A stretch of DNA of 64,000 nt, from the NCBI GenBank assembly GCA_029339195.1, contig JAPTJF010000065.1, positions 124,001 through 188,000 on the forward strand. The letters are read 5' to 3'. Below the pieces are notes generated by a model that saw nothing but the letters and a program-made list of their open reading frames with translations, did no database searches and was not told the origin of the DNA. The DNA comes from Micractinium sp. NFX-FRZ. Its lineage: Eukaryota; Chlorophyta; Trebouxiophyceae; Chlorellales; Chlorellaceae. The position numbers and the translations under genes were made by a program. The number at the start of each line of letters is the position of its first letter. The stretch's first letter is position 1. Positions 1,149 to 22,200 of this stretch are shown in pieces.

Positions 1149-1332
1149 ATGCCTCTGCGCTGCAGCCTACCTGGTCACATGGGGCCGCCAGCGGCGCCGC
1201 GCCCGGCAGCGACCAAGCTGGTGGGCATACTCCTGGTGCTCGTTGTTGGCTGTGCAGCGCAGATACAATGCCCGGCTGACATGGATCCATGCATCCTTGT
1301 CGGTGCAAACATAACGCTATCCAACACTGCGG
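1149..1332 (+). other. Signal-peptide exon of the giant secreted gene
   Basis: The first exon encodes a short basic/Pro-rich start, a hydrophobic core (KLVGILLVLVVGCAA) and a likely cleavage after Ala. It then enters the mature region with PADMDPCILVGANITLSN and ends in phase 1 at a GTGAG donor. The next exon (about 1,685-1,728) continues in phase with GATLVERGQDLE, and the following one (about 2,163-2,343) with YADVVTIRGTFSLAG. This establishes entry into the secretory pathway for what follows. Confidence 0.75.
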
Positions 1333-4300
1333 GTGAGAAGGCATGCTACTGCCTGGGAGCGCAAGCCCGGTGCAGCTGCGAGCGAGGCGCGGTGTGCGGC
1401 GCAAGGCGCAACGTGCTTTTGCTTGCCTTCGGGGAAGCACAGCTGCTTGTGAGGTGACTGTGCAGCTGCCGATGATGCGCGATTAGGCAGGCAATGGGTG
1501 TGATGACTACCTGCCGGCTTTCCGGGCTTAATCTTTGCCTGTCCTTAGCTAAGGCATTGCTTTATGACAGACGACTGCCCGCGCGTGGCAGCCGGGTACA
1601 TACTGCTTTGCGGCCACTCTGGCATATCACCTGCAGCAGCGCACACCCCGTCACATTACTTTTCTGCGTCTCTTGCTTCCATGCAGCTGCCGGCGCAACC
1701 CTGGTGGAGAGGGGCCAGGACCTTGAGGTGAGAGGCAGCCAGCGTTGTCACCGAGGGCGGGCACGCTCAGCTGTGGGCGGCAAGTGTGCAGAGCAGCGTC
1801 AAACATCTTGTGTGGATGGGGAGGCGACTGAAGCTGGATGAGAGCAGGAGCACCGAAAGCCTGTTAAAACTTCCTCAAGTGCCAATCAAGTGCCCCCAAC
1901 ATGCTCGCCCACCAGCGGCCTGCCGATCCCCTGCCAGCCTGTGCGCCCGCATGCCAGCCCTCTACAATGCATGCCTCTACGCCTGAAGGCTTGCATGTAG
2001 CACACATACTTCCTGCACATGTGCATGCCCACACATTTGTGAAATTGCCCATGCATCTGCCCATCGACACCCCCTCTGCTCCAAAGATCTCAACAGCTAC
2101 CCCCCACTCCCTTCGTCCTCCTTCCCGCCGGCCGGCCTGCTTGTTGCCCACCAACTGTGCAGGTGTACGCTGACGTGGTTACCATTCGCGGCACCTTTTC
2201 CCTGGCCGGCATTGCTGAACAATTCGGCGATTATCTGGCGAGTGTATCCAGTTCTTCTAGCATCATCTCTCGAGCAAACAAGTTGAAGATTGTGGCGCGT
2301 CGCCTGGTGTGTGCCACCACAACCTGCACCATCGACACCTCTGGTGAGTGACCTGCAAGAGGTGCAGCTCGGCAGTGCTTTAGTAAATATCGACGCTAGT
2401 TGGCCCTTAATCTTGGACAGCGTTTTACAATGCATTGCATACACTAGCAGCATAAACACGCCACCGTGTAGGCTGTGTTCAGCATTGCAGCTAGCACCGG
2501 GGCAACCCCCCTCCCGTTCTTCCTTCTTGCTTGCTAACCCTGGTTTATTGCGTTCCAGTCTTGTGCTGCCCCTGTTGCCCCGACACCACTCCCACTTGTC
2601 TCACGGCCCCCTATCCCAAGGCATGCCGCCCCCCGCCCTATGTCTCCCGCAGACCTCTTGGCACGCCGATTTTGCCGCAGCATGGCTCGTGGCTGGGTCC
2701 CGGCCTCTGGCCCCTTCTCCTTACAATGTCTCCCACCACCGGCACTCGCGTCTTGCTCTGCCTCTTCACTGCACCTTCTACCTTTGCCATGCCGCCAGCC
2801 CTCCCTGCCCCCGGCCTGCCCTTCTTGGGCCCATTGTCACCAGCCCAAGCCCACCTTGCAGGCGCAGAACATGCCAGCACTGCTCTCCGCTCTTCCCCCG
2901 GGGCATTGTCAATCTTCGGCCAGAGCCTCCCAACGGTTGAGTTCATTCATACTGTTGACACAGGTGTCCCATGCAACCCTCCCCCACTTCCAGGAGGCAA
3001 TGGTTATGACTGGGGAACCTATCAAGCTCCAAACTTACGGAATGGTGAGACTTGAAATAGACCCCCCCGGGAGGCCTTTGCTTGCGCTTGTCTGCCTTGC
3101 CTTGCTCCCTGTCAGCCCGTTGCATCGATCCAGCCTGCTTTGCTTCCCATACTCCGTCTCACTGCTTGCAACCCTGGCAGCCCCCCGTTGTTCCAGGGGT
3201 CTGTGTCGCTTTTTGTTTGCGAAAATCAGACTGTAACCCCACAAAAGCAAAGCTTGTGAGGGTGTGCTTTGAGCACCCTGCCACCCCCCTGCCCGCTTTA
3301 GCCGTGCCCTCCTCAGTCCCTAGCTGGTGCTCCCTCTTGCAGGCTCGCAGGGTAGGGATGGTGCAGAGGGCGCGCCCATCTTGGTTCACGTGGCCCAGTT
3401 GGACCCCGGCTTCACTTTCAGGGTGAGGCATAGGGGCGCCACACCTCCGCCATTTGGGTGCCAGCCGAGATGCACATCTCCCACCCATGCACGTGGTTGG
3501 AAAACGCCGCAGCCGGACATCCGCGCGGCCGCCAGCCAGCCGCCCAACCAACCTGTCGTGGCAGCCTCCCAACTCCGCATAGGCACATGCAACGCTGATG
3601 AAGCCAGCGTGTGCACATTGCCCACAGGTTACTGACCACTTACCACACCCATGCACGGTGACCATGCGTTGCAGGCGCAGGGAGGTAATGGCGGCGGAGG
3701 CCAGGTGACTGGGGGGGGGGGGGCAGACGTGTTGGTGCCAGAGCTTTAGCTGACCCTGCCTGACCCACCACTGTCGCAGTTTTGCTCCGCATATGCAGTG
3801 GCCCACTACAATGCACCCCCCTCATGCAGATTGGTGCTGACTGTGAACCCATTCTTCTTACCTCTACTTGTATATCGCGAAGTGACGCGCCTGCACGCGG
3901 TTTCAACGGTAAGGGCCGAGTTGCATGATCACACAACGCAGCTCAGCAAGCAGGCCCCTGAGCAACACTGCTTGCATGCACACATCTAAGTCGCATTTGC
4001 CACATTGTAGCTGCTGGGCATGATGTTGACTGAACTCTTGGCCACCTGTGCAGGCATGAATGGCGCCGGGGGAAACGGAGGTCAGGTAGTGGTGCTACAG
4101 ACGGAAAGCTTTACGGACTACGCAATGCAGACGCAAGGCGGAGTTGGAGGCTACCAAACCGAACTTCCGCCTCGTAAGCAACAATGGAAGGTGCCAGCAA
4201 TGTTCATGCGCCGGCATATCAATGCCCCCCAACTTGCCTCCGTTAACATCCCCGTCATGCAGGTGTGAGATTCACTTTTGGGCCAACGATCCTGCCGCCG

Positions 4301-7300
4301 CGGGCAGCCAAGGGCGGGGTGGCCCTCAACGCGATTCCGTTGTTCTCCTCGGCAAGCTGGCTTGACGGCATTGACATTCAGGGCGGTACCGTCGCCAACA
4401 TTACTGTCCCGCCGGGCGACGTGCGGGCGTGCGCAGCTGCCACGTACTCGCACTCCTCGGGAGTAGCTTTCACTTTCCAAAAGTCTGCCGGCACGTGCAT
4501 CATCAAGTCTGTCAAGCCGGCGGCAGAAGCACAGGTGGCGGTCAACACGAGCGCTGGCATCGTCAGTGGCATTGTGCGAAGCAAAGGTGACAGCACAAGC
4601 ACTGCGAAAGCTGAACTCTCACTTGTTGCAAATCTATGCATCACGTAGAGTGCACCCGAGCAAGTGCTTGTAGATCCTCGCAGATCAAAACTTTAATTTG
4701 TGTCAGTGCCTCCTCCTTCCTTGACCTGCACTTGCAGGCGCCCCCACGCTCGCTTTCATTTGGCCTGGATATGACTTTAAGGGTGGAGATCTGAGTGCAC
4801 TCAACCCAGTCTACGCGAGTTCAGTTGAAGCCTGCGCAGGTGCAGTTCAATGCTTGCTGACCAAGCCTCCTGCACTTTGCACATACGCACTAGCCTGGCC
4901 AGATTTGGTGGTGGTGTGTGGGGTGGGGTGGGTGGGTAGTGGGCGGGGTGGGTGGGCGGGGGCAAAGTGTAGAGCCCTGATTGGCTTCTTGCAACACTCC
5001 GGGTGCCTTGGCAAGGAGGCACTCGCACGACATTACAACCCGGCAGCCAGCGAGTCGCAAGCGCGCTTGGCTCGGGTGCTGAGCCCGCTCCCTTACAATC
5101 AAATTACAAATGCAGATCTATGCCGCCTACGTGCACCAAGTGGTGCTAACCCTGGTTGCACCGCATTCACCTACATCAACGCTGGTTTGTGCTACTTGAA
5201 GAGAAGTGACGGTTTCACTGCTCGCTTGGGCAGAGGTATGGTATCAGGCAGGCCGTCGCTAGAGCGGATTTCCAAGGTCGACATACCCGCGCTGGCCCCA
5301 GGTGCGCTGCGGAGTTGAGGACCTGCACGTACTGCAGTACACGCACATGCCCCTTACTGTGAACAGTGGCACCAAGCAAGAGGTGGGGGAGCCAGGTGGG
5401 GGAGCAGTTGTTAATGAGCCCAACAGTTCGGCCAAAGCAGCCCTACTGCCGGGATCTGCTGCTAAGGCCCTCCCCCCCGCCCCTCCCCCCCGCTACCTTA
5501 TTCCCAAGGGAACTAAGCATTTCGCCTGCCCCGCTTCCTTTGCCTCCGACTCCTGTGCCAGACGTGGACACTGCCTCCAGCTGCTACTACGAGATCAACA
5601 TCAACTACGAGGGCGGCGACTTGGATGCCTCCGCCCAGCCATCCGGCGCCATCTCCGGAGGCGAGGCCGGCTGCTGCAGCCTCTGCCACGAGAATCGCAA
5701 CTGCATGGTGCGTCTTAACCCCGTGACAACAGTATCTCACAAAGGCACAATTTGGCTTGTCATGCACATGAACATCCTCACCCCGCCTCACGCACACACA
5801 TCCTCGGCTTCAGCTCTCACCACTAAACAAGCCACTAATCACCAGCCACCAAATGGTCGCCGTATGCTCAATATCACCTGGGCGGACTTTGCCCCGGAGG
5901 GTGAAGCCCCTCGCACTCTTGTTCACCAACCCACCATGCCCCACGTTCACGCACACCATCAACCTGCCCCCCTTATCGAAGCTAGCCGCCCGCCCGTCCC
6001 CCCCCCCCCGCCTGCCACGCAGGCATGGACATTGCTGGCTGGGGACCAGTGTGTGCTCAAGGGACCGACCGGTTGGAATGCACGCCGTAATGCGACTGCC
6101 CTTGCATCGGGCATGATGGTCCGCGAGGCCCCGCAACAAGTTGGCGCCATGGGTGAGGCGGCTGGTGCACAGCCCAGATGTAGATAGCCCCCCCACCCTG
6201 CCTCGCTCACCCACCCACGAAGCCAACTTCAAGCGTGCACCATCTCCAGCAAGCGGGAGTTAAGGGTGGGCCCACTGTTGGGGGTTGTGTCTAAGCACCC
6301 ATCCTCTGCGCGCAGGCTCGTTCCCTTCCTCCTCAGGACAAGCGGTGTCTTCTGCGCTGTTTGGAACGACTAACTTCGACGGAGGGGATCTTGTCGGTGG
6401 TCCAACCGCAGCCGCCACTGCCAAAAACTGTTCCCAGCAGTACGTGCGGCAAAGGATGTAAAGCGCCTGCGGTTGCTGCCGTTGGCTGGTTTGCACTTGC
6501 TGGTGCTGCCTGGGTTGCGCCTGCTGGCAATTTGAAGATTGTGTTCGTCTAACACACTCTGTCCACCTCTACCATGCAAGCAGATGCTATCAACGTGCGG
6601 GTTGTACGTCATGGACATATTCCCCAAGCGCCAAAAATTGCTATCTCAAGAATTCCAATGGGATAATGCGGGCTGACGGGAACTTCGATTCTGGACTTGT
6701 GCAAGAAAGTGAGCCCCGTGCCTTATTCTGCAAACGCTCTTGTGGGATGTGCCTGCAAGGGCGCAGCAAGGACAACAGAGCCCGGGACACTGCACTGTTG
6801 TGCAACATACGACACATTCATGTTGCTTACCTGCTCCGATGCAGCTTTGGCTGGCACAAACTCAGTGGGCGGCACTCCTGGCAGATTCTTCATGGAAATC
6901 ATTGAGGAGGTCAAACGGTGAGGCACTTGCGTTGCTTATGTATGGCCCACCGATTGCTGTCAGGCTCAGCTCTCCACCGATATCCTTGCTCGCGGCAGCA
7001 TAGCTGCATGGGATGAGGATGCACATGTACCAACTTTCCGTCCAGCTCTCCTATCCGCCACGCATCGCCCCGCACTAGCGATGCAAAGCCAGTCATTTGA
7101 CACATAGCTGCTACCCCTGGCCTCCCCTCCCCTCGGCAGCTCCTGGTTCCGCAAGGACACTGCCAAGGCCCTGTTGCAGCTGGAGTTTCTTGTCTCCGTT
7201 GTGCCCACCTGCAGCGGCACTGCGTGCCGCGCCGCAAGACGCCAGATTAACCTCATGCTGGGGCCCCTCCGCTCCGGCCTGAGCCCCTCTATCCCCTCAT

Positions 7301-10300
7301 TTAATAGCAGCACCATCATGCTGGCCTCCACTCCCACAAGCTGCCTGCAAGCCACCCAACCCGGCAGCCCACCATCGGTGACGGTGGCGCTCGTCACCAA
7401 CTGCAGCGATGCAGATATGCCGCGCCAGCTGTTCACATTGGACAGCACTGGCCGCCTGCAGCACGAGCAGAGCCGGCTGCACCTGTACGTAGCAGCCAAT
7501 GGCGCCGTGTTGCTGGGCAACCTCTCCTTGGTGTCCCTGACCAGCTCCAATGCCAGGTGTGCACCATGCTGGTGCTGGCTGGGGCAGGGCAGGCTGCCCC
7601 TCATTCCAGGCCACACCCTTACTAGCTCCCCCTGGAACCGGCCTTTGGCGCATGTGAAGCAGCTCGGGAAGGCCACCCCTGTAACACTGGCTGTTCTGAT
7701 CTTGCCAATTCGATCAGTTTGTGGGACTCAAACCCTCCCTTCCCTCGCCTCCCCTGCAGTCTGTGGCATGTGGACATCACAGGCACCATCCGCCCACGCC
7801 ACCTAGACACCAGTTGCCTAGACTCTGATGGCACTGCGTTGTCGGTCAGGCCAATAGACCAGACAGGCAACAGCACTACCCAATTGTGGACTTTGGTGGA
7901 CCGCACCTTTAGTGAGTTGCAGCATATGCACGTTGGGCAGTTGTGAGAGGGGCATCGGGGTTGTTTGAAAAGGAAGTGCAGGTTGCTGTGCTTGCCGTGC
8001 GAGAGGTAGGCTGGTACCATGCCTAAGCTCTCTCCCTTGCTGACTACTGCATGGTGCTGCATGATGGGGCGTGTGGCCCAACCTTGCTTGCTTCCCAGAC
8101 GCATCTTCCTGCTCCCGCTGCTCTCTTTGTAGATGCTGGCTCATTTCCTGAGGGTCAGATTCTACTTGCAACCAAGGAAAACCCTCCAGGGCGCTGCTTG
8201 GCGCGGTCCGCAGTGCCGGGCGTTGTGGGTGTGTCCATGACATTCTGCCTGTCCCTGCCTTTTGGGGGTGTCCAGCAGTTTGTTTACAATGCCATCTCTA
8301 GCACAATCAGCGCCTCTGATGAGCGCTGCCTCACCACAGATGCAAACCGGCGCATCGCCGGGCATCTGCCATATCTTGCTGCCTGCACGGCGTCAGGCGT
8401 CGGCCAGCAGTGGATTCCGGACACAGAGGGCCGCTTCCACACCACCCACTTCCCCTCGGGCCTGTGCCTCACAGCGGGCACAGACAACAGCACCTTGACT
8501 ACCGGGAGCTGTGCTGCCTCCTTGGCAACAACATGGACCTCAAGTGAGTGGGGTGAGGGGTTAGGGGTAGGGGGCAGCGGGGAGCCCAGAGCAATGCAGG
8601 TGGAGACGAGGTGTTGCGGGGCGGGGTGCCTTCCCGCTTATCGGTGGTGGTGCTCATGGGCGGGAGAGCACAGTAAGGAGAGAAGGGAGGCTGGAGCGAC
8701 ATGATGCGCCCCTATTGAGCCCGCACATGCGACAGCCTCTTTCCATGCCTCATGCCGGTGTCGTGCTTGCCGAGCGACAATGCCTCCATTTGCTTGCTTG
8801 AGAGCAGAGCCTCTATGTGACATCAACATAGTCACGTGGAGCAAGGTCGTCAGTGACGTATGCATCGCAAAGAACGGCTTCACCGGAGGTGGGAACATGC
8901 TAGGATGTACACAACTTTTCAGCCCGTGTGCTCACCATCCAAGGAGCCTCAACATGGAACCCGCAGGCACCCGCTGCTTGCATAACGGCCTGCATGCCTC
9001 CCCACCTTATCAAATTTACTGCTCCAACGCGCCGGCCTCTTGTGCTGCCTTGCAGGCTGCCCATTCACGCGCAGCAATCACCTGGGTGTGTGCACCGATT
9101 TGACACCCCAGGTCAGGTTCCGGAAGACTGCGTATGTCAACAAAATTGAGGCGTACATCACGGCTGATGGCGACGCTGTGGGGGCGCTGCGCCTCTCCTA
9201 CTCCTCCGGCACTGGCAGGGACATTGTGGGGGACGATAGCCTGGTGTTGGGCTCCGGCAATGGGCCTGCCTCTGTACTCGTCTTGGACAGCCCTGTGGTG
9301 CAGCTGCGGTAAGCAAAGCCTTGTGCTTTGGCCGTTGCGCTGCAAGCGGGCTGGATGGGGCTTGGCCTACACGTTGCTAAGCTACGCTTAGTCGTACGTG
9401 CGCAACAACTACCTGCGTGCAGCCCGCATATCCTCCTCTACCATCCTTCTAACCATGATTTCTGACCAATGTCGTGTGTCTGCAGCATGTGGTACAGCAA
9501 GTCCTTGGACGCTGACAACAGAGTCCGCATTGGCCGCCTGTGAGTTGCTGCATGGGTGCGGTATGTTGTGCTGCAAAAGCGCCATGCATGCTGTGTACTT
9601 GGGTGGGCAATAGGCTGGTTTGCTGGCTGGCTTGGGCTGTTCCACTTGAGCTGAAGCTGGCCAGTGCAACACATACTTTGGCTCTGTGTCTTGTGTGGCT
9701 ATCAAACCTGTGGCACCTGTTTGGGTGACACACCATGCATCCTCCCGACCGCTGCAGCTACATCGGGTTGCTAGAGGCTTCCAAAGTGCTGGATGTGGGC
9801 GACAGGGACAAGTACCCCATGTCCTCGCCAGACATGGTGGCCATGTACGATGAGGATGACGTGGCGCCTGCTACAGGCTTGGGCGCCGTCATGGGGGTGT
9901 ACTACACCACCTGGGAGAGGAACGGGCGCCCCGCTGCCCTCAACTCCATCGGCCTGTTGGTGCCCAGCAAGCCCACCAACATGGTGTATACACTAGATTT
10001 GCCACCCATTGACCCAACTAAGTTGGAGTCCCAAGCCATGACGGCCCTGCAGCTGACGGTAGACAACAGCAAGAACAGGCGACAGACCCAGGTGGGTGGC
10101 TCGCTACTGCAGGGGGGGGGGCACATGCAAAATAAGGCACCGGCGTGGCCACTGTGACTGTGACAACTCGCCTTCCTTTTAAAGGACTGATATAGCTACA
10201 TTGACGGCAGCTCAAATCGAGGGGGCACACGCACGCACGCGCATAGTTTTTGCTGCAGGGTTGGGAAACTACACTCAATGCACTCATTGTGCGCTCACTC

Positions 10301-13300
10301 CTATTCTCGCCGATGTCGAGGGTGCCAGCCATCCTCACTCTTTTCACCCAGGACACGCCTATCCCCCCTTCCCCTCCCAGCTGGTCCTCCCTTGGTGCAA
10401 CTTGTGTTGCTCTTCAGCAGCGCCCGTTATAGCCTGCCCCTTCAGCCTGGGCTGCCCAACTTCCGGCCACCTGCACGCATGCCAACCGTGGTTGTGCGCA
10501 TCACATGTGCCCGTTCCCTGCGCCCACTGTAGGTTGTGTGCCCTTCGTGGGAGCAAACTATCACTACCGGCTACAGATTTGAGCGCTCACAGGAAGAGTC
10601 AAAGTGAGTCAATCTGTGAAGCGTTTCTGGCAAGTAGCAGCTTGATGCCAACGTGAGGTGCTGGTCGGCGGGGGGCTGTGGACACCATGAACACCAAAAG
10701 CTTAAGATGTGCTTACAAGTTCCCTCGAGGTGTGGATCTGTGTTTGTGGTGAAGCTTTTCTACCGGTTGACTCAAGGTGCTTGCCGAGAGGGCGAAGCAG
10801 GTGCTCGCTCATCATGGCGTGTGAAGGCCTAAAACGCGGCGGCAGCGATGTAGGCGGACAGTCCAGCGTGCGGCGGCGCAAGGCTAGGAGGGTGCAGCGT
10901 GCTATGCCGATGCACTGTTTCGAGTCTCAACGTGTATTTTTGTTTTTTGTTGCAGCTGCACGTATCAAGGCGCGCAAGCCCTTCCTAAGACAAGGAGTCC
11001 TTGCTTGCCCTGCAGGCTACAAAAATTCGCTTGGGAGACTGGGCAGGACATTGGGATCAAGGCCTGCTTCTCAGCAGGAATTCCGTTCACAAGGTGGGCA
11101 CGAGATCCCCTTTCTCCAGGCGGGGTGCGGGGATGGCAGCAGCATTTGGATGCCTGCTGTCTATTGGACTAAGCCGCCGCTGCTGTGCGCGCCCACGGCA
11201 TGACTGCATGCATCAATGGGAGCCCTCAATGCCCCTCTCCACCCACCCCAATTTTTGCCTTATAGTGTGAAATCAGGGTGGGAGGTCAGCACGAACCTGA
11301 ACTGGGGTTTGTCTGGAAGCAAGGAGTTCTCCAGCACGACCATACAAACGACCGAAGTCACCGATGAGGTACGCATGCTGGCTGCGTGTTGCATGAGGGG
11401 GGTCATAGCAGTGTAACCCAGCCAAAAGGCAGCAGTAGAGAGGGTATTCCGTGTTGGGCTGCTTTTGAAAGGGCGAAGGTGGCAACGTGCCCAGTTCAAT
11501 TGCGCCCGAGGAAGAGAGAGTACCTGGAGGTGACCCTCGTTGTGTTGCTCTAACGGCTCTTCTAAGCCTCCCGCCCTCCATTTTGCAGGTGTCCACAACC
11601 ATTTCAATGCCAAGCCAGGTGCGCTGCTGCCTGGCTGGTCGGGTGGGTTGTTGTGTGCCTGGTCGCCCCACCTTGAACTTACACACTGCAAGGCTAGCTA
11701 TCCCGTTGCAGACTTTCTTCCTAGGCCCAGGCGAGGTGGGCAGATGCACTGGCCTGTACGCCAAGATGGTGACAGATCTAGAGTGTAAGTCTACGGCAGC
11801 ACAACAATTTGCTAGGGGATGCATATGGTGATGTGGTGCATGTGCTACTGTATCAGCTGTGGCTTTGGCTAGGTTTAGCCGCAGCAGCACAAGCCCGCGC
11901 TGACACGGGATGCTGCAGACTTCTCCGCATGCGCCTAACAGGCACTGCACCTGGTCCCACAGCACAAAGCGCAACTTGCCGGCTGGCTTGTGCTGATGAG
12001 AAGTAGTCGTTACTCGCACTGGCATCTCTGTTTCCTAAGCGAAGCACGCCTTTTCACAGCTGTATGCCGCCCCAACACGCTTGTGGGGCCAGCAGCTATG
12101 CCACACCATGGATCCCCCTTCCCCATACCCCCTGCAGACACCAGCACCTTGATCATGAACTTCCCTTCGGAGCCTGGGATGAGCAACACGCCGATCTACA
12201 AGCAATCGTGGTGCGTGCACCTGGTTGGGACTTGAGCTCGCAAGGTGGCCAATGCACAACACCGCTATCATGGCCTACCTAAAACTGTCACGATTTTTCT
12301 TCAACCCTCGCGTCACTCGCCCGCAGGAAGGGGACCTTCAGGAGCGTGAATGTAACGGCAGGCTTCACTGGCTTCAGCAGCACGTTTGCTGTTGGTCAGT
12401 GCGTCAAGGGAGCAGCATGAGAGTGCACTGTGCGCACAGTGCAGCGCTACACCGCATGAGCGCATTAGGGCCTAGGGGTCAGCATGTGCATGCCCCTGTA
12501 CAAGCATGGGCTACTGCTCATGCCCCGGTTTGCTGTCATGCCATTGCCGCAGCACCGCCCTCGCCTCCACCGTTTTCGCCGCCGCCCCCACCGTATGGCC
12601 GCTCCATCGAGGCCGGGAGCTTCATCCGAGACATTGTGGTGATGGCCGGCACGGGGTACCCCGGCATCTGCCCTCGCACGTACACTTGGGTGGGTGACTG
12701 GGGCCCACTGAAAGGATGCAGGTCCTGGTTCTTCAGCATGCTCTGTGCATGTTCGCCTAGGTGGCTTGGGGCCCCCCTCCCGGGAGGGATCAGGAAATGC
12801 ATGGGGCAAAAGAGTGCGTTCCCCTGCGGGCTAACTCACTGTGAACCTGCGTCAAATCCTAACAGGTGGAGCACAACCTCAATGGCCCCGGAGAGCCAGC
12901 TGGACGTCAGCCGCTGTATGCCTGCTACCAAGCAGCAGCCGCTGCCGAATTCTTAAGCTCGCGCTTCATCGCCGACTTAACGGTCACAACCGGGCAGACT
13001 GAGGATGACGCCGTTTGTCCAGCCGGCTTTGCCCGTCTGCCCAGCGATCTGAATGACGGTGCTGGCGGCTGGTTTGTGTTCTTCTGTGCGCTCTACATCC
13101 CCAAACCCTCTGGCTCTATGCTCCAAGATTTCGAGGTGTCTAACATACAAGCCTGCCGCACAGGTTACGCCCTAGCCAGCAACCAGAACATGAACCGCGG
13201 CGTGCCCAACTCCTCCCTTCTCTTCCTGTGCAAGCGGTTGACAGGTGCGGTGGCAGCGGTGGGGGATGGCGGCCAAGATGCAGGGGGCTGGCTGGCAGGT

Positions 13301-16300
13301 AGGTGGGCATGCCAACGGGCGCTTCCATGTGTGAGGTCATTAGGGCAAATGTTGCCCTCCCACGATGCTACCATGCCCGTACCCACAGGCTACTGTATTT
13401 CATTGCTTGACTCGACTTGCAGACTCCAGGATCAGCCCCCCCATACTCGCCTCACCACCCCCGCCTCCCTCCTACATCCGCGCCGTTGACACCTCCAGCT
13501 TCCTGCGAGCCATCACTGTGGTGGCTGGGCCTGGCAGCCCCGCCATGTGCCCACGCACCTTCACTTGGGTAAGCGCGCCGGGGCCCGGCGGTTTGTGTGG
13601 TGCATTGGCGCGCGTGCACCACATGTCGGAGTTTCAGAGCAGCCGCACGGTATTGCCGTCATGCTGCCACATGTGCTTGCTCACTTGATCAGTCAGTTGC
13701 ACCATGCACAACTTCCTCAAATGGCAACAGGGTAAGGAGCCGCCCCCAATGCTCCCTCCTGACAGGTGGAGCACAATCTCAATGGGCCAGGGGAGCCTGC
13801 TGGGCTTCAGCCACTGTACGCCTGCTACCAGGCCGCATCCCCGTCCGATTTCCCAGCATCACGCTTCATCGCTGATTTGACGGTCATTGCCGGGCAGAAC
13901 GAGGACGACGCCGTCTGCCCCCCTGGCTTCACGCTCCTGCCCAGTGACCTGAACGACGGCGCTGGCGGGTGGTTTGTGTTCTTTTGCGCGCGCTACATCC
14001 CACAGCCCTTTGGCTCCATGGTGCAAGACTTTGAAGTGTCTCCGACGCAAACGTGCCGCCCCGGCCACGTGCTGGCCAGCACCCAGAACCTCAACCGTGG
14101 CGTGCCAAATTCCTCCCCGCTCTTCCTGTGCAAGCGGGTGGCCGACTCTGGCATCCAGGCGCCTCGCCCCGCACCACCCTCTCCTCCACCACCACAGCCT
14201 GCAAGACCTTCCCCCCCACCCCCTCAACCGCCCCGCCCTCCGCCTCCGGCGCGACCTTTCTTTGAGGTCGTTCCTGCAGGTGTGGCACCACTCGTCCTTC
14301 TTGTACCGCTGATGCTGTGCACGCACATGGTTGGTGGTGCATTGGATGGGCTGGGGGTACGTTGCAATGGCAGGCAGCCACACTAAAGCCCCATGTCGGC
14401 CTAACCGCTAAACCCTCAACCTCCCCCCCTACAGGAAATGTGTGCGTGTTCTACATGCTGCGTGCAAACCCAATCAACGGCAACCTCACCTCCTACATCC
14501 CTTACGCAAACGCCACCAGCGCCACCGACTGTGCCTGCCAGACGGCTTGCCGCACTGCGTTCCAATGTGACGCCTGGCTGCTGTGCAAGTGAGAGTGGAG
14601 AGGCTAGTCGTGGGCAGGGCAGAAGGATGTCGGCTGCCTGATGGCGTGACGTTGTGCATCACTCCCGTCCTAAAGTTACAGTGATGCAGATGCACTGACC
14701 CCCCCCCGCTCACAGTACCAAGTGCCACGCCCGACCCACCCCCCCCGCACTGCGGCGCCCTCACAGGACTGCCGATCGGCGAAAGGACTGTGCCCGCGCC
14801 TTGCCCTTCAAAGACGCCATCAGGGGGGTCAACTGTATCAAGTAGGTGGTTGGTAGCGGCTGCCTGCAGGGCTGCCAATGCGGCTGCCTGCAGGACTGCC
14901 AACGCGGCTGCCTGCCACGTGTGTCAGTGCACCTGGAACGCAAGTGAGGATGCTGCCTAAATGACACACGTCCGCCCCCGCCTGTGCAGCTTGGCCTCTC
15001 CCTTGCAAAAGACGGTTGCAGCGCCTGTGGTCGAATTCACCAGCAGGTGAGGCCGGGGTGAAGGCCGGGGCCTGCCTTGCCGTGCTGGGCGCACGCAGCA
15101 CCTGGCTGTGTTGAGGCAGGCTGTGTTGACAGCAGGATGCCATGTAGTGTGCCATGGTGCTGCAGTGCTGGTGCAATGCAGCAAGCACGGTGCCAGGTCT
15201 ATGATCCACCCCTGCAGCACGGCCCGCTCATGCACCCATGCACCCCTGCCTGCAGCTTCACCGACCTCAACTCCAAGCAGTTCGACAGGCTGAGCTCAGC
15301 TTATGTGGCTGCTGTGCAATTCGCGATCGCTGGTAATAAACTGTTGGGGTGGTTTGGGAACGTCCCCTTGCCTGCGACCTGCACAAGCGCTGCCAAGTGC
15401 AATAGCTGCAGGTGCCCCGCCTTCCTACGCCAACCCCCGTTGTGCCCATGCAGCCCCAGCCCAAGTCCAGGTGACCAGCGTGGTAGCCATAGCTACAGCT
15501 ACGGCTGGAAGCGCTGTTCGAAAGGCTTCCCTGGTCGCAGGCGTGGCTGTCGGCACGCGGGTCACCTTCTTGGGTGACAGCAAGGATGCAAAGGTGCAGG
15601 TGCGCTCAAGTGGACCTTGCTAAGAGGCGGCGCACTTCCCCCCAGATTTGCAGCAGCCTGCGGCCTGCAGCTGTGCGCGTGTTACTCACTGCAACTTGCA
15701 CGCGGCCGGCAACGGTTGACGACAAGCTGCGCATGCTTGAAGTACGGAGGTGCGACGTTTCAATCCCTGCCGCCCTGCAGGCTCAAGTGCGCCGGTTTGA
15801 AACGACCACCTTGCCTGGCATCACCAACAGCATCAAGCGCCGAATGTGAGGATGTCAAAGGACGCTGGGGCGTGGAAGGCAGCCCCGCCCCTCTGTGTGC
15901 ACACATCATCCCCCTACACGCAAATTGACTTTGCCGATGGCAGTACTGGACGCTGGACGGAGGACCCCCTCCTTGCAGTGCCCTTCACCATCCCCCTACT
16001 TGCGCGCCAACCGCAGGAAGCTGACCAAGGCAGTTCAAGTCGAGAAGACCCGCACCACGCAGACTCTGATTGCCATTGGCAAGCCCAACCAAAAAGGTGA
16101 GGCTGCCACGCTGCCAGCCCTACTGCCCAACATTCTAAGCTGGGCATGCGTGTGTATACATGGCATGGTGTACTACTAGCTGAGCTCCGCAGCAATGCAT
16201 GCCACTGCAACAAACCATGCCAATGCCGACACCCGCGGCCATGGTCCCCCCTGTGTGCAGCCCTGGTGCTCAGCCTCGGCCAGCTGGCCACCTCCTCTGC

Positions 16301-17456
16301 CGGCCTGCCCCGCGCACATGGCGCTGCTGCCGCCGTGGATGGGCAGCTGGACACCTGCATGCAGACCGCCCGTGTGCCTCAGCCTTGGCTGGTTGTCGAC
16401 CTGGGGAAGGAGCAGGTCATTGCCACAGTGATAATCACCAACAGGCAAGCTGTGTAGCAGCACTGCCTTTGGAGGTGGGGGTGACGCGCCTCAACCACTC
16501 GGTGCTGCTGCACTGCCTCCACCGCAGCTAGGGATGCCCGCACATGGGATGCGCTGGCTCGCCTGGCGTCAACTATGCATTGATGGTTAGAGCTCTCGAC
16601 TGCTGCTATGCATGAGTGCAGCTGCCCGGCCCATCGTCAACACCCGCGCTTACCCACTCCACCTGCCCCTCCAGGCCGGCGAGCGACCCATTGGCGGCCA
16701 GCCTGCATCACGTCGAGGTCCGCGCCTGGAACATCACCCCACCCATGGCAAACCCCTCTACCACCACCAGGTCAGCAGCGTGCGACCCTTGGGGGTGCTA
16801 AGTTTTCGCGGGGCCCTGCTGGGCACGTGGTGCTGACTTGCACACTGGACGGATTCTGATGTGCCCCACTCGTGACGCATGTAGCCCTCCTGGCACTCCC
16901 CTCGCCTGCCACTCCCATCCCGACGTGCCCACTGCGCCAGCAACAACATGCCCATGCCCGCATCGCCTCCCACGCCGCCCGCTGCAGTGGCGTGCTGTGC
17001 GGCTTCCGCCAGGTGCCTGTGCCCGGTGGCGCAACTCACGCATTCGAGTGCGGCAGCGCACCTTGGGGCGTGCGGGCGCGTTACGTGTCGGTCCGCATCA
17101 CAGCTGCTGCACCCGAGCACTTGGCGCTGTGCGAAGTCACCGTGATAAGCCCGGGTGCGCTGGCAGCTGGAAGGCAGCAAGCTGTCGTTCAGCAACAGCA
17201 GGTGTCTGTACAGCAGCAGCAGGTCCCTGCGATTCCCTGGTTGCATGCCTCGCTCACTCGTGCCTTAGACATGAGGTTGCAGCAGGCGGTGGGGAGCACT
17301 CATGCAGCTTGCTGAGTTGCACCTTCTCTCACCACTGCCCTCCTGTGCCTCCTCGCCCCTCGAGGCCCGTGTGCAGATGTCAACACGGCCAGGAGCCTGA
17401 ACCCGCTCAAGCGCAGTTTGCTCCAGTCAGCCGGCGGATCCGGAGCAGGCTGTTGA
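1149..17456 (+). CDS. Giant secreted multi-lectin protein with aerolysin/natterin-like domain (many exons)
   Basis: This is a spliced gene for a secreted or surface protein of probably 2,000 or more residues. It starts at ATG 1,149 (or the in-frame ATG 1,179, which gives a tidier signal peptide with core VGILLVLVVGCAA). In order it carries a Gly-rich solenoid-like region, PAN/apple modules, ricin-B-like trefoils, a jacalin-like domain, an aerolysin-type domain, two MABP-like domains, a Cys-rich PAN-like segment, a SEA-like module and a fucolectin-type domain. I checked splice phases by hand from the jacalin/aerolysin junction (about 10,090) through the MABP pair to the SEA-like exon, and again across the fucolectin end; all are compatible with one continuous reading frame. 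The end is uncertain: reading through gives TGA at 17,313, while splicing from a GTGCGC donor near 17,153 to an acceptor near 17,378 gives TGA at 17,454. Function is inferred as glycan binding, possibly with membrane insertion. Joining into one gene is well supported in the 3' half and less certain in the 5' half. Confidence 0.7.
2163..4190 (+). other. Gly-rich, beta-solenoid-like N-terminal region of the giant gene
   Basis: Short exons encode strand-like stretches (KIVARRLVCATTTCTIDTSG; VMTGEPIKLQTYG; APILVHVAQLDPGFTF) alternating with GGNGGGGQ and GAGGNGGQ motifs. The pattern recalls Gly-rich repeat surface proteins of algae and bacteria that fold as right-handed beta-helices. Exon phases in this stretch were only partly reconciled (the exon ending near 3,043 can be read in two frames), so the exact splicing is uncertain. 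No catalytic residues are apparent. Confidence 0.45.
4264..6709 (+). other. Array of about four PAN/apple-type modules in the giant gene
   Basis: Four units share the PAN pattern: an F-x-G-G-D-L-like start, a Cys that opens the module, then a GC-x-A/S-F/W-T-Y segment and a Cys-x-L-K element. Unit 1 is about 4,264-4,590 (GIDIQGGTV, TCIIKS). Unit 2 is about 4,738-5,245 (GYDFKGGDL, GCTAFTYINAGLCYLK). Unit 3 is about 5,563-6,155 (YEGGDLDAS, DQCVLKG). Unit 4 is about 6,316-6,709 (FDGGDLVGG, GCTSWTYSPSAKNCYLK). PAN modules bind proteins or carbohydrates in secreted proteins. Each unit is split over two exons, which suggests expansion by duplication of exon pairs. Confidence 0.65.
7140..8544 (+). 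other. Ricin-B-type beta-trefoil region of the giant gene
   Basis: Several repeats show the trefoil signature of a Q-x-W/F residue pair, a G-x-I/L turn and a Cys-Leu start. Examples are RQLFTLDSTGRLQHEQS, LWHVDITGTIRPRHLDTSCL, TQLWTL, CLTTDANRRIAGHLPYL and GQQWIPDTEGRFHTT. There are enough repeats for one complete trefoil and probably two. In the family, such domains bind galactose, GalNAc or other sugars. The neighbouring PAN and jacalin-like modules support a glycan-recognition role. Confidence 0.6.
8805..10093 (+). other. Jacalin-like segment of the giant gene
   Basis: Exons at about 9,057-9,309, 9,484-9,541 and 9,758-10,090 encode a beta-rich domain. It includes VNKIEAYITADGDAVGALRL followed by a Gly/Asp-rich SSGTGRDIVGDDS turn, resembling jacalin repeats where an I-x-x-I-x-V strand precedes a Y-x-D-G hairpin. 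The last exon ends in LTVDNS, matching the hinge that precedes the pore-type domain in jacalin-aerolysin fusions such as natterins. The assignment rests on pattern and position, not on conserved sugar-binding residues. Confidence 0.5.
10090..12412 (+). other. Aerolysin/natterin (ETX-MTX2) type domain of the giant gene
   Basis: About seven short exons encode this domain. The exon at about 11,018-11,091 carries WETGQDIGIKACFSAGIPF, close to the family's signature of an aromatic-rich strand followed by a-G-I-P-F. The exon at about 11,267-11,367 carries alternating Ser/Thr strands (GSKEFSSTTIQTTE) typical of the insertion hairpin. A later exon (about 11,711) has an LGPGEVGRC turn like the family's P-P-G-t element before the C-terminal strands. 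Exon phases match throughout. Members form beta-barrel oligomers in membranes, but whether this one does cannot be read from sequence. No broken frame is seen. The domain continues in phase into the Pro-rich linker before the MABP modules. Confidence 0.7.
12553..14279 (+). repeat. Tandem duplicated MABP-like beta-prism modules with Pro-rich linkers
   Basis: Two copies lie head to tail: copy 1 is exons 12,553-12,689 and 12,866-13,244; copy 2 is exons 13,423-13,568 and 13,766-14,279. Each copy has three internal repeats of a pattern F-I/L-x-D/A-I/L/F-x-V, then C-P/R-x-G/T, then D-L-N-x-G or N-x-N-x-G, then a Cys/Tyr end (SRFIADLTV, CPAGFARL, DLNDGAGGWFVFFC, LLFLCKR). This is the three-fold repeat expected of the MABP/beta-prism fold. 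The intron falls at the same codon in both copies (after the T-W pair), and each copy is preceded by a P-rich hinge. A third P-rich hinge follows copy 2. The copies are clearly similar at DNA level, so the duplication is fairly recent. Confidence 0.75.
14435..15598 (+). other. Cys-rich PAN-like segment and SEA-like module of the giant gene
   Basis: The exons at 14,435-14,588 and about 14,717-14,842 give a Cys-rich PAN-like unit (DCACQTACRTAFQCDAWLLC, then KDCARALPF). The exons at about 14,990, 15,256 and 15,454 give an acidic/hydrophobic stretch FTDLNSKQFDRLSSAYVAAV followed by VQVTSVVAIATA and VAVGTRVTF. That order of a helix and a V-x-V strand pair resembles SEA-like or related self-processing modules common in algal extracellular proteins. 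Phases agree across these exons. No G-S-V-V-V type cleavage motif was identified. Confidence 0.5.
16258..17153 (+). other. Fucolectin-type (F5/8C-like) C-terminal domain of the giant gene
   Basis: The domain opens with GQLATSSAGLPRAHGAAAAV, followed by DGQLDTCMQT, PWLVVDLGKEQVIATVIITN, HHVEVRAWNI and, at the end, ARYVSVRI and LALCEVTV. These match the order of eel-fucolectin/tachylectin-4 type domains: A-x-D-G-x-x-D-T-C, then W-x-V-D-L-G, a calcium-supporting loop, R-Y-V and L-C-E-V. The expected residues for binding terminal fucose (His and two Arg) were not assigned with confidence. This gives the protein a third kind of lectin fold. Confidence 0.7.
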
Positions 17457-18703
17457 GTCGGCTACCGGGCGACCACAGCAGGCCCGCCGTGGCAGCCGAC
17501 AGATCTGGTGCTCAAAGACCAGATGTGGAGCCCTGTCACCCGTGGCACGCCCAAACGTGTTACAGACGCTGCATCCGCTGATGCAAGAGACTGGGTGCCG
17601 TCGATGCTCTTGGCACCAAGAGGTGCCTCGCCAACCTGTGGGCTGCGTACAGTCTGCGCTGGTGCACACTTGGCACACCACCCTGAGCGTGCCTGCCCAA
17701 GCCGCCCCAATGGCCATTGGTCAACGCTTCACTCAGCAATCAGCTCTTTCACCCTTCTCTCTCCCAAGCCCCTTCGCTACTTGCGGAAACCCACGCAGTG
17801 TGCTAAGACCGTGCACTACGTGCTGTTCTCCATGCTCCTTTGGTTGTGCCCCCTTCAGGCTGTTGCGGACGGGTGCAATGCCCACCCCACTGTCATTTGG
17901 GCAGTCACTTTGAGCCATCTTCTTTGAGCCGAGCCGATCCCTCCCTTATTTTGCCGAAGCCCCTCCGCTTCTTGTGGAAACCCATGCAGTATGCTAAGCC
18001 AGCTGCAGCTGCTCAGCTGAGCGCGCATCATGTGTTGTCCTATCGCGTCAGACTGTTGTCGACAGGTATGTTGCCCACCCCTGTTTCCTGCACTCTGCAC
18101 CTCCATCTCAGGCAGCCTTTTGCCCTTCTTATTCCTCGTGTGAGCTGGATCCTGATTCTCCAACCGCGTTGCTTATGATCCTGGAATGTTGTGATTCCTG
18201 CATTGCCAGAGGACTGCACGACAGGCCGCCAACCAGGCTTTGCATCTAACATAACACATGTCGTCAAAACGCCCGCTGTAATATGTTATAGTTTTTATCC
18301 AATAGATATAATTTAGCTGACCAGAGCACTTGCCCCTGGGCTACAACGCTGGTGTGCTGTGCTCTGGGCAGCTGACTCAGCCTCGGAGGCTACCTGCACC
18401 TCACAAAGCGCTCAGCCCGGGCCCATGCTCAGTCCACGGCGATGCTGCTACACAGCATGTGCAGTCCAGTGCACGACAGTGCGAAAACAATCATGACCAC
18501 TGTGATAGAATGTAAAGGACGAGGCACAGGGGGCAAGGAAAGGGAGTCGGTGCTCAGTTTTTTCGTGTGATCATGAGCGCCGCACGAGCCGCCCGCCACG
18601 TGTGCGCCAGCTGTCGGGAGGTGAGCACTGGAAGGCGTCCCATTGCCCATGGCCATGCTTAAACGAAATTGCACATCCAACATCGCGACCTATAGAGGCT
18701 TGC
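17457..18703. other. Intergenic: 3' UTR of the giant gene and promoter of the SulP gene
   Basis: No credible coding exon was found. TGTAA-type polyadenylation signals occur at 18,287 and 18,511. An AT-rich patch near 18,280-18,315 (with tataattta) stands out from the GC-rich surroundings and may be a core promoter element. The stretch also contains a diverged direct repeat listed separately. Confidence 0.45.
17765..18087. repeat. Diverged direct repeat of about 140 bases, two copies
   Basis: Copy A begins near 17,765 and copy B near 17,956. Both start with a block reading approximately aagccccttcgct-cttg-ggaaaccca-gcagt-tgctaag (six differences in 43 positions by eye). Both also share a second block ending in a tgcccacccc-like string (about 17,855-17,894 and 18,045-18,085), with unrelated sequence between the blocks. 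No coding function is apparent. Confidence 0.55.
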
Positions 18704-19254
18704 ATGTCGGTGCCAAGGGAAAGCGACACTGTAGGCGCACGCGGCGCGCAAACCCCAGCGCCACGACTTGCGGGACAACCTAGCGACACCGTGACGCAAG
18801 TATTGGAAGCTCCCTCCGGACCGGCAGGCCTACTAAGCCGCCTGAGCAGCAGCCTGCGCACTGGCGGCGCTGCTGCCGCCAGCACTGGCACCTCCGGCGG
18901 CGGCCAGCGCAGCCCTCACGATGACCTGGAGCAGCCGCTCCTGGCGGGTAGTGATGCCGATGAAGAGCAGCAGCTGGCAGGCTATAGCCAGGAGCCTAAG
19001 CGCTGGCCGCAGCTGCGGCTCAGCAGCGTAAGCAACCGCCGGCTCAGCCCCTCCCTTCTGTCCCCCACTGCCAGCGAGGGATGGGGGGGCCTGCTGCAGC
19101 CTCCACCGCTGCCCCACCCGCCCCCTGTCCTGCGCCACAGCTCCCAGCGCTCCTCGCTCGGCCAGCCGTTGCTGTCACCACGCGGCACTGGTGGCGGCTT
19201 TGCGAGCCCGTTCACGCAGACCGTGCAGACCGCGACCTCGGCGGCAGCGGCAGC

Positions 19255-19287
<33 letters not shown>

Positions 19288-22200
19288 CTACGCTGCAGCC
19301 CCTTTCCACACTCCGGTGCTAGATTACCATGCAGACGCGGATGCGCTGTTCGATGCGGCAACGGGCGGCCCCAGGCAGCTTGGAGAGCCTGTCTCGGGGC
19401 ACAAGCAGCGGCCAGCAGCGGGCGAGGCGCCAGAGGCTGGGCGATACACACGGGCGGCGGTGACGGGCGCTGTGAACGCTGTGGTGGCGCTCCCCATCAT
19501 GCTCTCGTTTGCTGCCATCATCTTCCGGGTGGGGTGCAGCAGGGTGGCGGTGCATGGGTATGCAGTGAATGTTGACACGGCGCGCTGTGTGCTGGGCTGC
19601 TGGCGCTGCTGGTGGGCGGGGGCGCTGCTGGCCCCCCGCTTTGTGCCCCACCCCTCCCTGTGTTTACTCTCTGCCTACAGCACTGTGTGCACTCTTTCCA
19701 AGCATAACAACTCCTTACACGTGTATTAATGCCCCCTTCCCTCCCCGCTTGCGGCAGGACCCATTCTTCCACCCCCAGCTGGGCAGCCTGGTCAAGCTCG
19801 TCTTCCTGGCCAGCGCCCTGCACCAGGCCGCCTTTGCTGCCTTCAGCACCCTGCCCTTTGCTGTGGGGCAGGTGCAGGATGTGGGCCTTATCTTCCTCTC
19901 AGCCATTGCCAGCTCAGTGGTGGGGCTGTGCAGGCAGGCGGGGGTGGGGGCAGAGGACACGCTGGCCACCGTGCTGGCCATGCTGACGTGCAGCACCGGA
20001 GTGGTGGGCGCTCTCATTGTGTGCACAGGTGGGTGCGAGGGCGGTGCCCTGGGGTGGGGTGGGCCATGTGGTGAGGTGGCTGGTTGGCTGCCAGGCTTGG
20101 CTGGGAGAGGGGCGGGATTACCTGCCACCAGCTGGTGACACCAGGGCACGGCCGTTGCTGCCCAGCAGCCTTCCACTATTTGGCCAACCCATCTGGCAGC
20201 CCTCACACCGCCAACCGCTTGCTGCAGGCGCCCTGAAGCTTGCGGGTGTGGTGCAGTACGTGCCGTTGCCCGTGGTGGGCGGCTACCTCTGCTTCGTGGG
20301 ATACTTCTGCCTGGCGGCAGGTGCGCTCCGGGGCAGGGGTGGTGGTGCCGGGTGGTGAGGAATCAACGCATGACAGGCCGGGTGGCACCGTGTCGTGTGT
20401 GTGCCATGTGCAGAAAGTCGGTGTGTCGCCTTGCTGGTGTCAGCTCAGGGCATCCTTGCAGCCTCACGCACGAAACTGAGCGGGTGGGTGGAGGGAGGTG
20501 GAGTTGCGCCTTTTGTGCCTGCTCACCTCCCTGCCCCTGCACCCACGTCCCTGCACCCGGGCCCGCAGGCGTGAGCCTGGCGTCGGGGGTGGAGGTCGGC
20601 GGGCTGGCCTCCTGGGCACAGCTGGCCAGCGCAGACGCGCTGCTGAAGCTGGCGCCAGCGCTGGCCATGGTACTGCTCATTACTGTGGTACTGCACCGTG
20701 TCAGGTGCGTCGGTCGGCGGAGGGTCGGGGTAGGTCTGTGCCGCACAACTGCATCGTGCCTGCAGTCTTGGATGGCCTGCATTTCATCCCGGGCCCGGCT
20801 GACCCAATCATAGCGTGTGGGAGGGACTGCAGTGTGCTTGCGTGAGATGCAAATTAAAGCGGCATGTGAGGCCGCCAAGCCAGCCAGCCAGCCAGCCAAT
20901 CAGCTGCATGCTTTGCTCTCGCGCCCGCCCAACCTGGCCGCCTTCACCCACCCCGCAGGAGCCCCTTTGCCCTGCCGGCCCTTCTAGTCGCGGCCCCAGC
21001 GCTGTTCTACGCCGTGCTGTGGTCCCAGGGCGTCAGCTTGGAGGAGGCTCGCGAGGCGGGGTGGGTCAGCAAACCGCAGGTGTGCGGGGGGGAGGGCAGC
21101 CTTGCATACCTCACGTGCACACGCACATGCCCGCGTGATGCTGCAACTGCGCTGGCGGTGTATGCTGCGCTGTTCAGCTACCAGGGTACCGCAGGATACC
21201 GTGTCCTACAATTGCCTGCCTGCCCCGCTGCCCACTCGCCCGCCTGCCTGTCCGCCCGCCTGCCTGCTACCTTCCTTCCTACCGCCCCCTGCCTGCCCCG
21301 CTCACGTCCTGCCTTTCCCCACACAGCCCGGTGACGGCGAGTGGCAGTTCTGGCACGCCTGGCAGCTGTACCGCATCCACGACTTCCCGCCCTCAAACAT
21401 CTACTGGAGGGCGATGCTTAAGCAGGTGGGACTGCGAGCAGCTGCAGCGCCAGCTGGCGCGGTGTGCTGCACGCAATCGCTTTCGCCAGCAGGTGCATGC
21501 AGCCTTACATCCCCAGCCCGGCTCGGGGAAACTTTGCCACGTTCCGGCCTGAACTCTTCCTGTCCCGCCCCCTCCCTTGTCCCAACCCGCCCCACCACCC
21601 CTCCTTAGGCTCCCCATCTCCCTACACACTTGCCCACCACCGCAGTGCAGCTGGACGAGCAGCTGGCTCTCTGGTTTGCCTTGCCTGCCTCCCACTCACC
21701 CCTCCCCCTCGCAACCTCCCCCGCACCCCCGCCCCCCCCCACCACACACACACACGCCCACACGCCCCGCAGCTGGGCAAGCTGCTGGCCCTGTACTTTG
21801 TCGTGGCCTTTGGCAGCTCAATGGACATTGCCGCTATACAGGCAGACACGCCGCGCGACCTGGACTACAGCAAGGAGCTGGTGACCGTGGGTGAGCGGCG
21901 GGGGGGGGACGGGGGGTGGATGGGTGATGGTGGATGGATGCGATGCCATTCCAGCGACACACTCAACGAACTATTTCTTCTCGACTGAGACGCCCGCATG
22001 GCGCTCTGCAGGCGTATCCAACCTCCTGACCGCCGTCGCTGGCGTGGGCTTCACAGGTGCGGTGCCAAGGGGAGGCAGGCAGCGACTCCGGCAGTGGTTG
22101 CTCAGCTCTCCCGCTACCCCAAGGCAACCTGGCTGCGCATGCAGCAAGGTAGTCGAGCCATGCGCTGCTCTTACACCGCCACTGCTCCTGCTGTGGTCTC

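Follow-up and report, generated by a model that had tools for sequence, protein, structure and literature searches.

The 64,000-nucleotide window analyzed here (contig JAPTJF010000065.1 of Micractinium sp. NFX-FRZ, positions 124,001 to 188,000) contains, at positions 1149..17456 of its + strand, a well-supported candidate for one giant gene encoding a secreted mosaic protein of 2198 aa. The reading frame of this gene is continuous; it encodes a leader together with PAN, trefoil, MABP, and F-type lectin modules, and its arrangement is conserved in two paralogs with fewer nonsynonymous than synonymous substitutions per site (dN < dS). The product is read here, with a confidence that stops just short of even, as a secreted, glycan-reading, membrane-docking, and possibly pore-forming defence factor of a photosynthetic alga; that it is made from a single transcript, docks on membranes, and forms pores, along with its target and purpose, is what we infer from the arrangement. 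The window lies in contig C65 of a 66 Mb assembly of 838 contigs, and the chlorophyll a/b-binding family, with 49 matches in this genome, marks the organism as a photosynthetic eukaryote, in agreement with a preliminary description, made by a model from the letters and a program-made list of open reading frames with translations, that had called the gene algal.

Gene structure and export

Exons were first read by eye and then checked by script; all coordinates refer to the + strand. The resulting model comprises 45 exons with a coding sequence of 6597 nt and no internal stops, bearing out the start and end proposed in the preliminary description. Splice phase, previously claimed to agree for parts of the gene only, was consistent at all 44 junctions, and retention would break the frame for 41 of the 44 introns. 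All acceptors are AG and all donors GT, apart from one GC donor at 16445 in the intron after exon 42 (16445..16674), which is also GC at the equal place in one paralog (on contig C751) and GT in the other (on contig C122). A first model, which had 44 exons, coded for 2225 aa, and ended at 17315, was replaced by one ending at 17456 after the last donor was compared with the paralogs: the last intron (17155-17376) was adopted since each paralog has a G|GTGCG donor at this position, and leaving it out restores the alternative end at 17315. Exon 45 (17377..17456) encodes a short C-terminal tail and the stop; since the tail sequence is not conserved, this is the least certain exon and the exact C-terminus the least certain point of the model.

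Exon 1 (1149..1332) supplies the start codon and the signal peptide named in the preliminary description. Hydropathy in 19-residue windows is maximal at aa 19-43, and values stay at or below 1.6 in all windows starting after aa 60. The product therefore has the look of a secreted rather than a membrane-anchored protein; a similar leader can be read in C122. The predicted protein contains 68 Cys and 18 N-glycosylation sequons.

Lectin modules and MABP beta-prisms

A Pfam search with curated cut-offs, run on the 2225-aa version of the gene, returned PAN_4 (in four stretches), PAN_1, Ricin_B_lectin, and F5_F8_type_C_2. Accordingly, of the families that the preliminary description had expected, PAN, Ricin_B_lectin, and F5_F8_type_C were recovered, whereas aerolysin, MABP, and jacalin were not. 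The Gly-rich N-terminal region of exons 2-8 (1687..4173), evident from the sequence and solenoid-like by eye, matched no Pfam family in that search; its exons 3, 6, and 8 are conserved in the paralogs. The four PAN/apple modules previously described occupy exons 9-15 (4263..6708), with PAN_4 at 76.1 bits against a cut-off of 27 (E 2.2e-21). Across the whole genome, PAN_4 was found at 80 places at E<=0.1, and by this count PAN proteins are a large family in this alga. A spacer conserved in both paralogs, made up of exon 16 and roughly the initial third of exon 17 (6845..7300, end approximate), leads into the ricin-type beta-trefoil lectin region, which spans the rest of exon 17 to exon 19 (7300..8543, start approximate). 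Ricin_B_lectin matched this region in three stretches at 45.3 bits against a cut-off of 29 (E 1.2e-11), in line with the trefoils reported earlier, and its length suggests that it probably holds two of them. When the trefoils were compared with PDB as single sequences, the matches to a chain of a type II ribosome-inactivating protein (E 0.0057) and to a cytolysin (E 0.12) were both too weak to use.

The two MABP beta-prisms proposed in the preliminary description are firm at the level of sequence and predicted fold. Exons 31-32 (12553..13244) encode a Pro-rich linker and the first prism, seen by profile and repeat motifs, and exons 33-34 (13423..14279) the second, seen by profile, repeat motifs, and AlphaFold2 and followed by a PPSPPPP-type linker. 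Whereas Pfam matched neither this region nor the aerolysin-type one, an outcome that the preliminary description had named as telling against its reading, the MABP part was rescued by solved structures, among which its profile matched Mpf2Ba1 at E 1.5e-15. An AlphaFold2 model of 125 aa encoded by exon 34, which make up most of one prism, matched, among the folds listed, Mpf2Ba1, 2QP2, and 3TOW, with a predicted beta-prism fold like that of Mpf2Ba1 and of the MVB12B MABP domain. DLN-type triads, as in Mpf2Ba1, retain their Asn in all 15 repeats of the five MABP modules found in this genome; the full DLN stands in the middle repeat of each of the five, and N-L/M/F-N in the other two repeats. The MABP fold is described as membrane-binding in Mpf2Ba1 and MVB12B in the available part of one source (PMC10344926). 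Profile A2 also recovered four metagenome proteins at E<=0.1, of which P0001 is 58% identical; no relatives were found with A2 in GTDB genomes, or with A2 and A1 in viral contigs. P0002 and P0004 (the latter only at E 3.8e-3) carry repeated DLN motifs, and by eye one of these two has a hydrophobic, anchor-like stretch and the other a lipoprotein-like leader. Prisms of this type may thus spread wider than Pfam shows.

Three further modules complete the C-terminal part. The Cys-rich module of exons 35-36 (14435..14841) and the module of exons 37-41 (14990..16096) are both conserved in C751. The former, described earlier as a fifth, PAN-like module, matched no Pfam family and found no support in any profile; the latter matched no profile either, and its SEA-like character is one of resemblance only. 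Exons 42-44 (16261..17154), by contrast, carry the fucolectin-type (F5_F8_type_C) domain expected from the preliminary description, which is present in both paralogs, matches Pfam F5_F8_type_C_2, and by profile finds FBP32 (3cqo, E 2.7e-17) and the eel lectin (1k12, E 9.5e-6). A His/Arg motif is the fucose-binding motif of F-type lectins. The CTH His of FBP32 and the eel lectin, taken as the His of this motif, is replaced by Gln in the window gene, Lys in C751, and Gln in C122, a point that weighs against a glycan-reading role for this module; because of this replacement, canonical fucose binding may be lost, and the module is best termed an F-type domain by sequence, its binding of fucose being hypothetical.

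The jacalin-like and aerolysin-type regions

Exons 20-23 (8808..10091), which both paralogs conserve, terminate in a G-x-V-x-G ... LNSIG stretch that we take to resemble the jacalin C-terminus. The jacalin-like identity given in the preliminary description stands as a tentative one, based on this motif; profile searches, including those of the three spliced paralogs, gave no match to the Jacalin profile. Downstream of it, exons 24-30 (10533..12394) form the proposed aerolysin-type region. A three-paralog profile of this region, searched against 177635 PDB sequences, gave a single match up to E 10, to residues 185-255 of LSLa, an aerolysin-family haemolytic lectin, with E 0.054 for the longer profile and 0.024 for the core profile. 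That this lone match belongs to the very family proposed counts in favor of an aerolysin-type identity, which we regard as plausible but unproven. Exons 25-26 (11016..11368) further encode a candidate membrane-insertion hairpin with two arms of alternating polar and non-polar residues (aa 1283-1294 and 1299-1310), in both of which the alternation exceeds the 95th percentile of this protein. Such alternation is, in the accessible part of one study, the best kept pattern of the aerolysin-family insertion loop (PMC3110756).

Several results weigh against an aerolysin-type assignment. With a profile of the reversed sequences, E-values of 0.046 and 0.047 were reached by antibody light chains, as compared with 0.024, and since this control performs about equally, the LSLa E-value alone means little and the call by itself is not significant. 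Single-sequence phmmer of the region against PDB gave no matches up to E 10, hmmscan of the three spliced paralogs found no Pfam Aerolysin, ETX_MTX2, or Jacalin, and exon-by-exon searches of the whole genome for these three families were empty, their controls also being silent. The alternation of the hairpin is strong only in C751 (permutation p 0.0005), with p 0.10 in the window gene and 0.15 in C122. For the aerolysin-type domain of the preliminary description, the weak match to LSLa is no more than suggestive, with neither Pfam nor the reversed control in its favor; of the at least six lectin or adhesion folds claimed beside it, several are borne out, with jacalin and SEA kept by resemblance only.

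Paralogs, proposed function, and related proteins

When most of one MABP module was used as a query against the genome, matches came up at five places (window, two; C751, two; C122, one), and the aerolysin-like and jacalin-like stretches are present in these same three genes. Module order is kept over nearly the whole length in C751 and with fewer modules in C122; in the best colinear chains, blocks overlapped exons in frame in 27 of 28 cases for C751 and 18 of 24 for C122. The C751 chain begins at exon 6, with exon 3 also matching, and this paralog shows four PAN-like stretches, of which the first is weak (halves at E 0.015 and 2e-5), and keeps both modules preceding the F-type lectin. In C122, which starts with a leader-like stretch, the PAN block and both of those modules were not found in the paralog comparison, and the F-type lectin comes within ~90 nt after the only MABP module and its Pro-rich linker. 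Of the exons of the 44-exon version, a phase-constrained search recovered 31 in C751, 17 of which are identical in length, and 11 in C122. From these, 23 and 8 exons, respectively, were used for dN/dS, with the uncertain exons 10, 16, 23, 24, 26, 27, 30, and 44 dropped where recovered. NG86 estimates of dN/dS were 0.33/1.53 against C751 (~0.21; 1207 codons) and 0.49/1.39 against C122 (506 codons), which points to purifying selection, the ratio being rough because dS above 1 is near saturation. Profiles A1, A3, A4, A5, and A9 were built on paralog exons with borders read by eye. None of four pieces searched against Pfam at E<=0.01 (two from C751, one from C122, and one from a neighboring gene, ricin-region pieces included) found a match; by six-frame search, C122 does have a Ricin_B match above the cut-off.

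In the proposed mechanism, the signal peptide would export the mosaic lectin, whose PAN, trefoil, and F-type modules would engage glycans or proteins, either in the algal wall or on the surface of a target; the two MABP beta-prisms would provide membrane docking, after which the aerolysin-type part could oligomerise and push the amphipathic hairpin into the membrane. The most likely use would be defence against, or attack on, other cells. Somewhat more doubtful is the extension of this reading to a three-gene algal family of giant secreted pore-forming lectins, with a core of trefoil, jacalin-like, aerolysin, MABP, and F-type modules to which PAN, the second MABP, and other modules would be swappable add-ons.

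That the 16 kb span, modeled from genomic sequence, holds two or more neighboring genes whose frames join by chance is highly improbable, even though TGTAA, the usual green-algal poly(A) signal, occurs within the span at 3232, 6457, 7680, 11412, 11784, and 12351 and also beyond its end, at 18277 and 18511. One giant gene is well supported because phase is continuous through all junctions without a stop, no second hydrophobic leader precedes the Cys-rich downstream modules, and the order is equal in C751 and, with internal modules missing, in C122. Within one gene, it is unlikely that exons 20-30 adopt some other beta-rich fold, neither jacalin nor aerolysin, leaving a plain multi-lectin; the lack of a significant profile match and the similar E-value of the reversed control would fit such a fold, whereas the sole PDB match to LSLa and the hairpin-like alternation in C751 argue against it.

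A rather doubtful, though more substantial, alternative is an extracellular-matrix or mating/aggregation adhesin, in which all modules, the aerolysin-like one included, would act in the algal wall purely for binding and spacing, without forming a pore. The PPSPPPP Pro-rich linkers, the abundance of Cys, the four PAN modules and their many counterparts in the genome, and the weakness of the aerolysin evidence all suit an adhesin. However, C122, in which the PAN block was not found, retains the trefoil, jacalin-like, aerolysin-like, MABP, and F-type modules, which look like the functional core, and the aerolysin-family match sits between lectins and prisms. Because two prisms whose fold is reported to bind membranes in Mpf2Ba1 and MVB12B (PMC10344926, in part) adjoin the aerolysin-like part, we tilt towards membrane action.

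As in LSL from Laetiporus, SaroL-1 from a choanoflagellate, and the plant amaranthin-aerolysins, a lectin here precedes a (tentative) aerolysin-type part, and as in LSL and SaroL-1 that lectin is a trefoil. These proteins have one or two lectin domains, and SaroL-1 and the amaranthin-aerolysins are also far shorter than 2198 aa; LSLa likewise has 315 aa, unlike the present protein with its added PAN, MABP, and F-type modules. The F-type module resembles eel AAA and bass FBP32 across the domain but differs in being the C-terminal module of a mosaic and in its replaced His. Like natterins, which join a jacalin-like or DUF3421 domain to aerolysin, the protein has a jacalin-like stretch (here by motif) directly before an aerolysin-like one, whereas its remaining modules fall outside the natterin scheme as given in the available part of a review (PMC8402412); its most primitive species is the lycophyte Selaginella, and its text contains no word that starts with alga. 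The combination of lectin and aerolysin is an established eukaryotic theme, described, as far as the accessible parts of these sources go, from fungi, plants, fish, and a choanoflagellate (PMC3110756, PMC5554364, PMC9468336, PMC8402412), with amaranthin domains not found in six green algae (PMC5554364). In Chlamydomonas, combinations of two different lectin domains are described, one being LysM with a fucolectin-type domain (PMC6362431, in part). Mpf2Ba1 and Mpf1Aa1, both bacterial MACPF proteins, and the MVB12B MABP domain share the beta-prism with three Asn-bearing repeats, by sequence and fold match, but in those proteins the prism comes after a MACPF domain or belongs to ESCRT-I, as partly documented (PMC10344926), and here two prisms follow an aerolysin-like part; no Pfam match to MACPF was found in the 2225-aa version. 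No description of this module set was found in searches of open-access papers.

If the pore-forming reading is true, the lectin-aerolysin theme reaches an alga at much larger scale, paired with a docking prism of the kind known in MACPF proteins and in ESCRT-I (PMC10344926, in part), and the three-gene family would join a MACPF-type docking prism to an aerolysin-type pore-former. Three paralogs with differing module sets would permit a direct test of the target-choosing modules, and the family would offer a handle on the protein weapons of microalgae against grazers, microbes, and each other. Should the aerolysin part fail, the protein would still be an unusual multi-lectin wall or surface protein.

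Wider searches recovered no further relatives: of 7605 candidates from 5.8 billion proteins, none matched the whole protein (2225-aa version, region 440-1900) at E<=1e-3, and none of the best 7999 candidates matched profile A1 at E<=10. Rfam gave no match across the window, and the Pherophorin family was not found in the genome by a search whose control was silent. The C751 contig ends, over the first 72 bases of its reverse strand, in a run of ~72 G, probably a sequencing or assembly artefact. A 123-aa two-exon piece of the next gene on the same strand (18574-20330) had no Pfam match at E<=0.01; by eye, this gene has the look of a multi-spanning permease.
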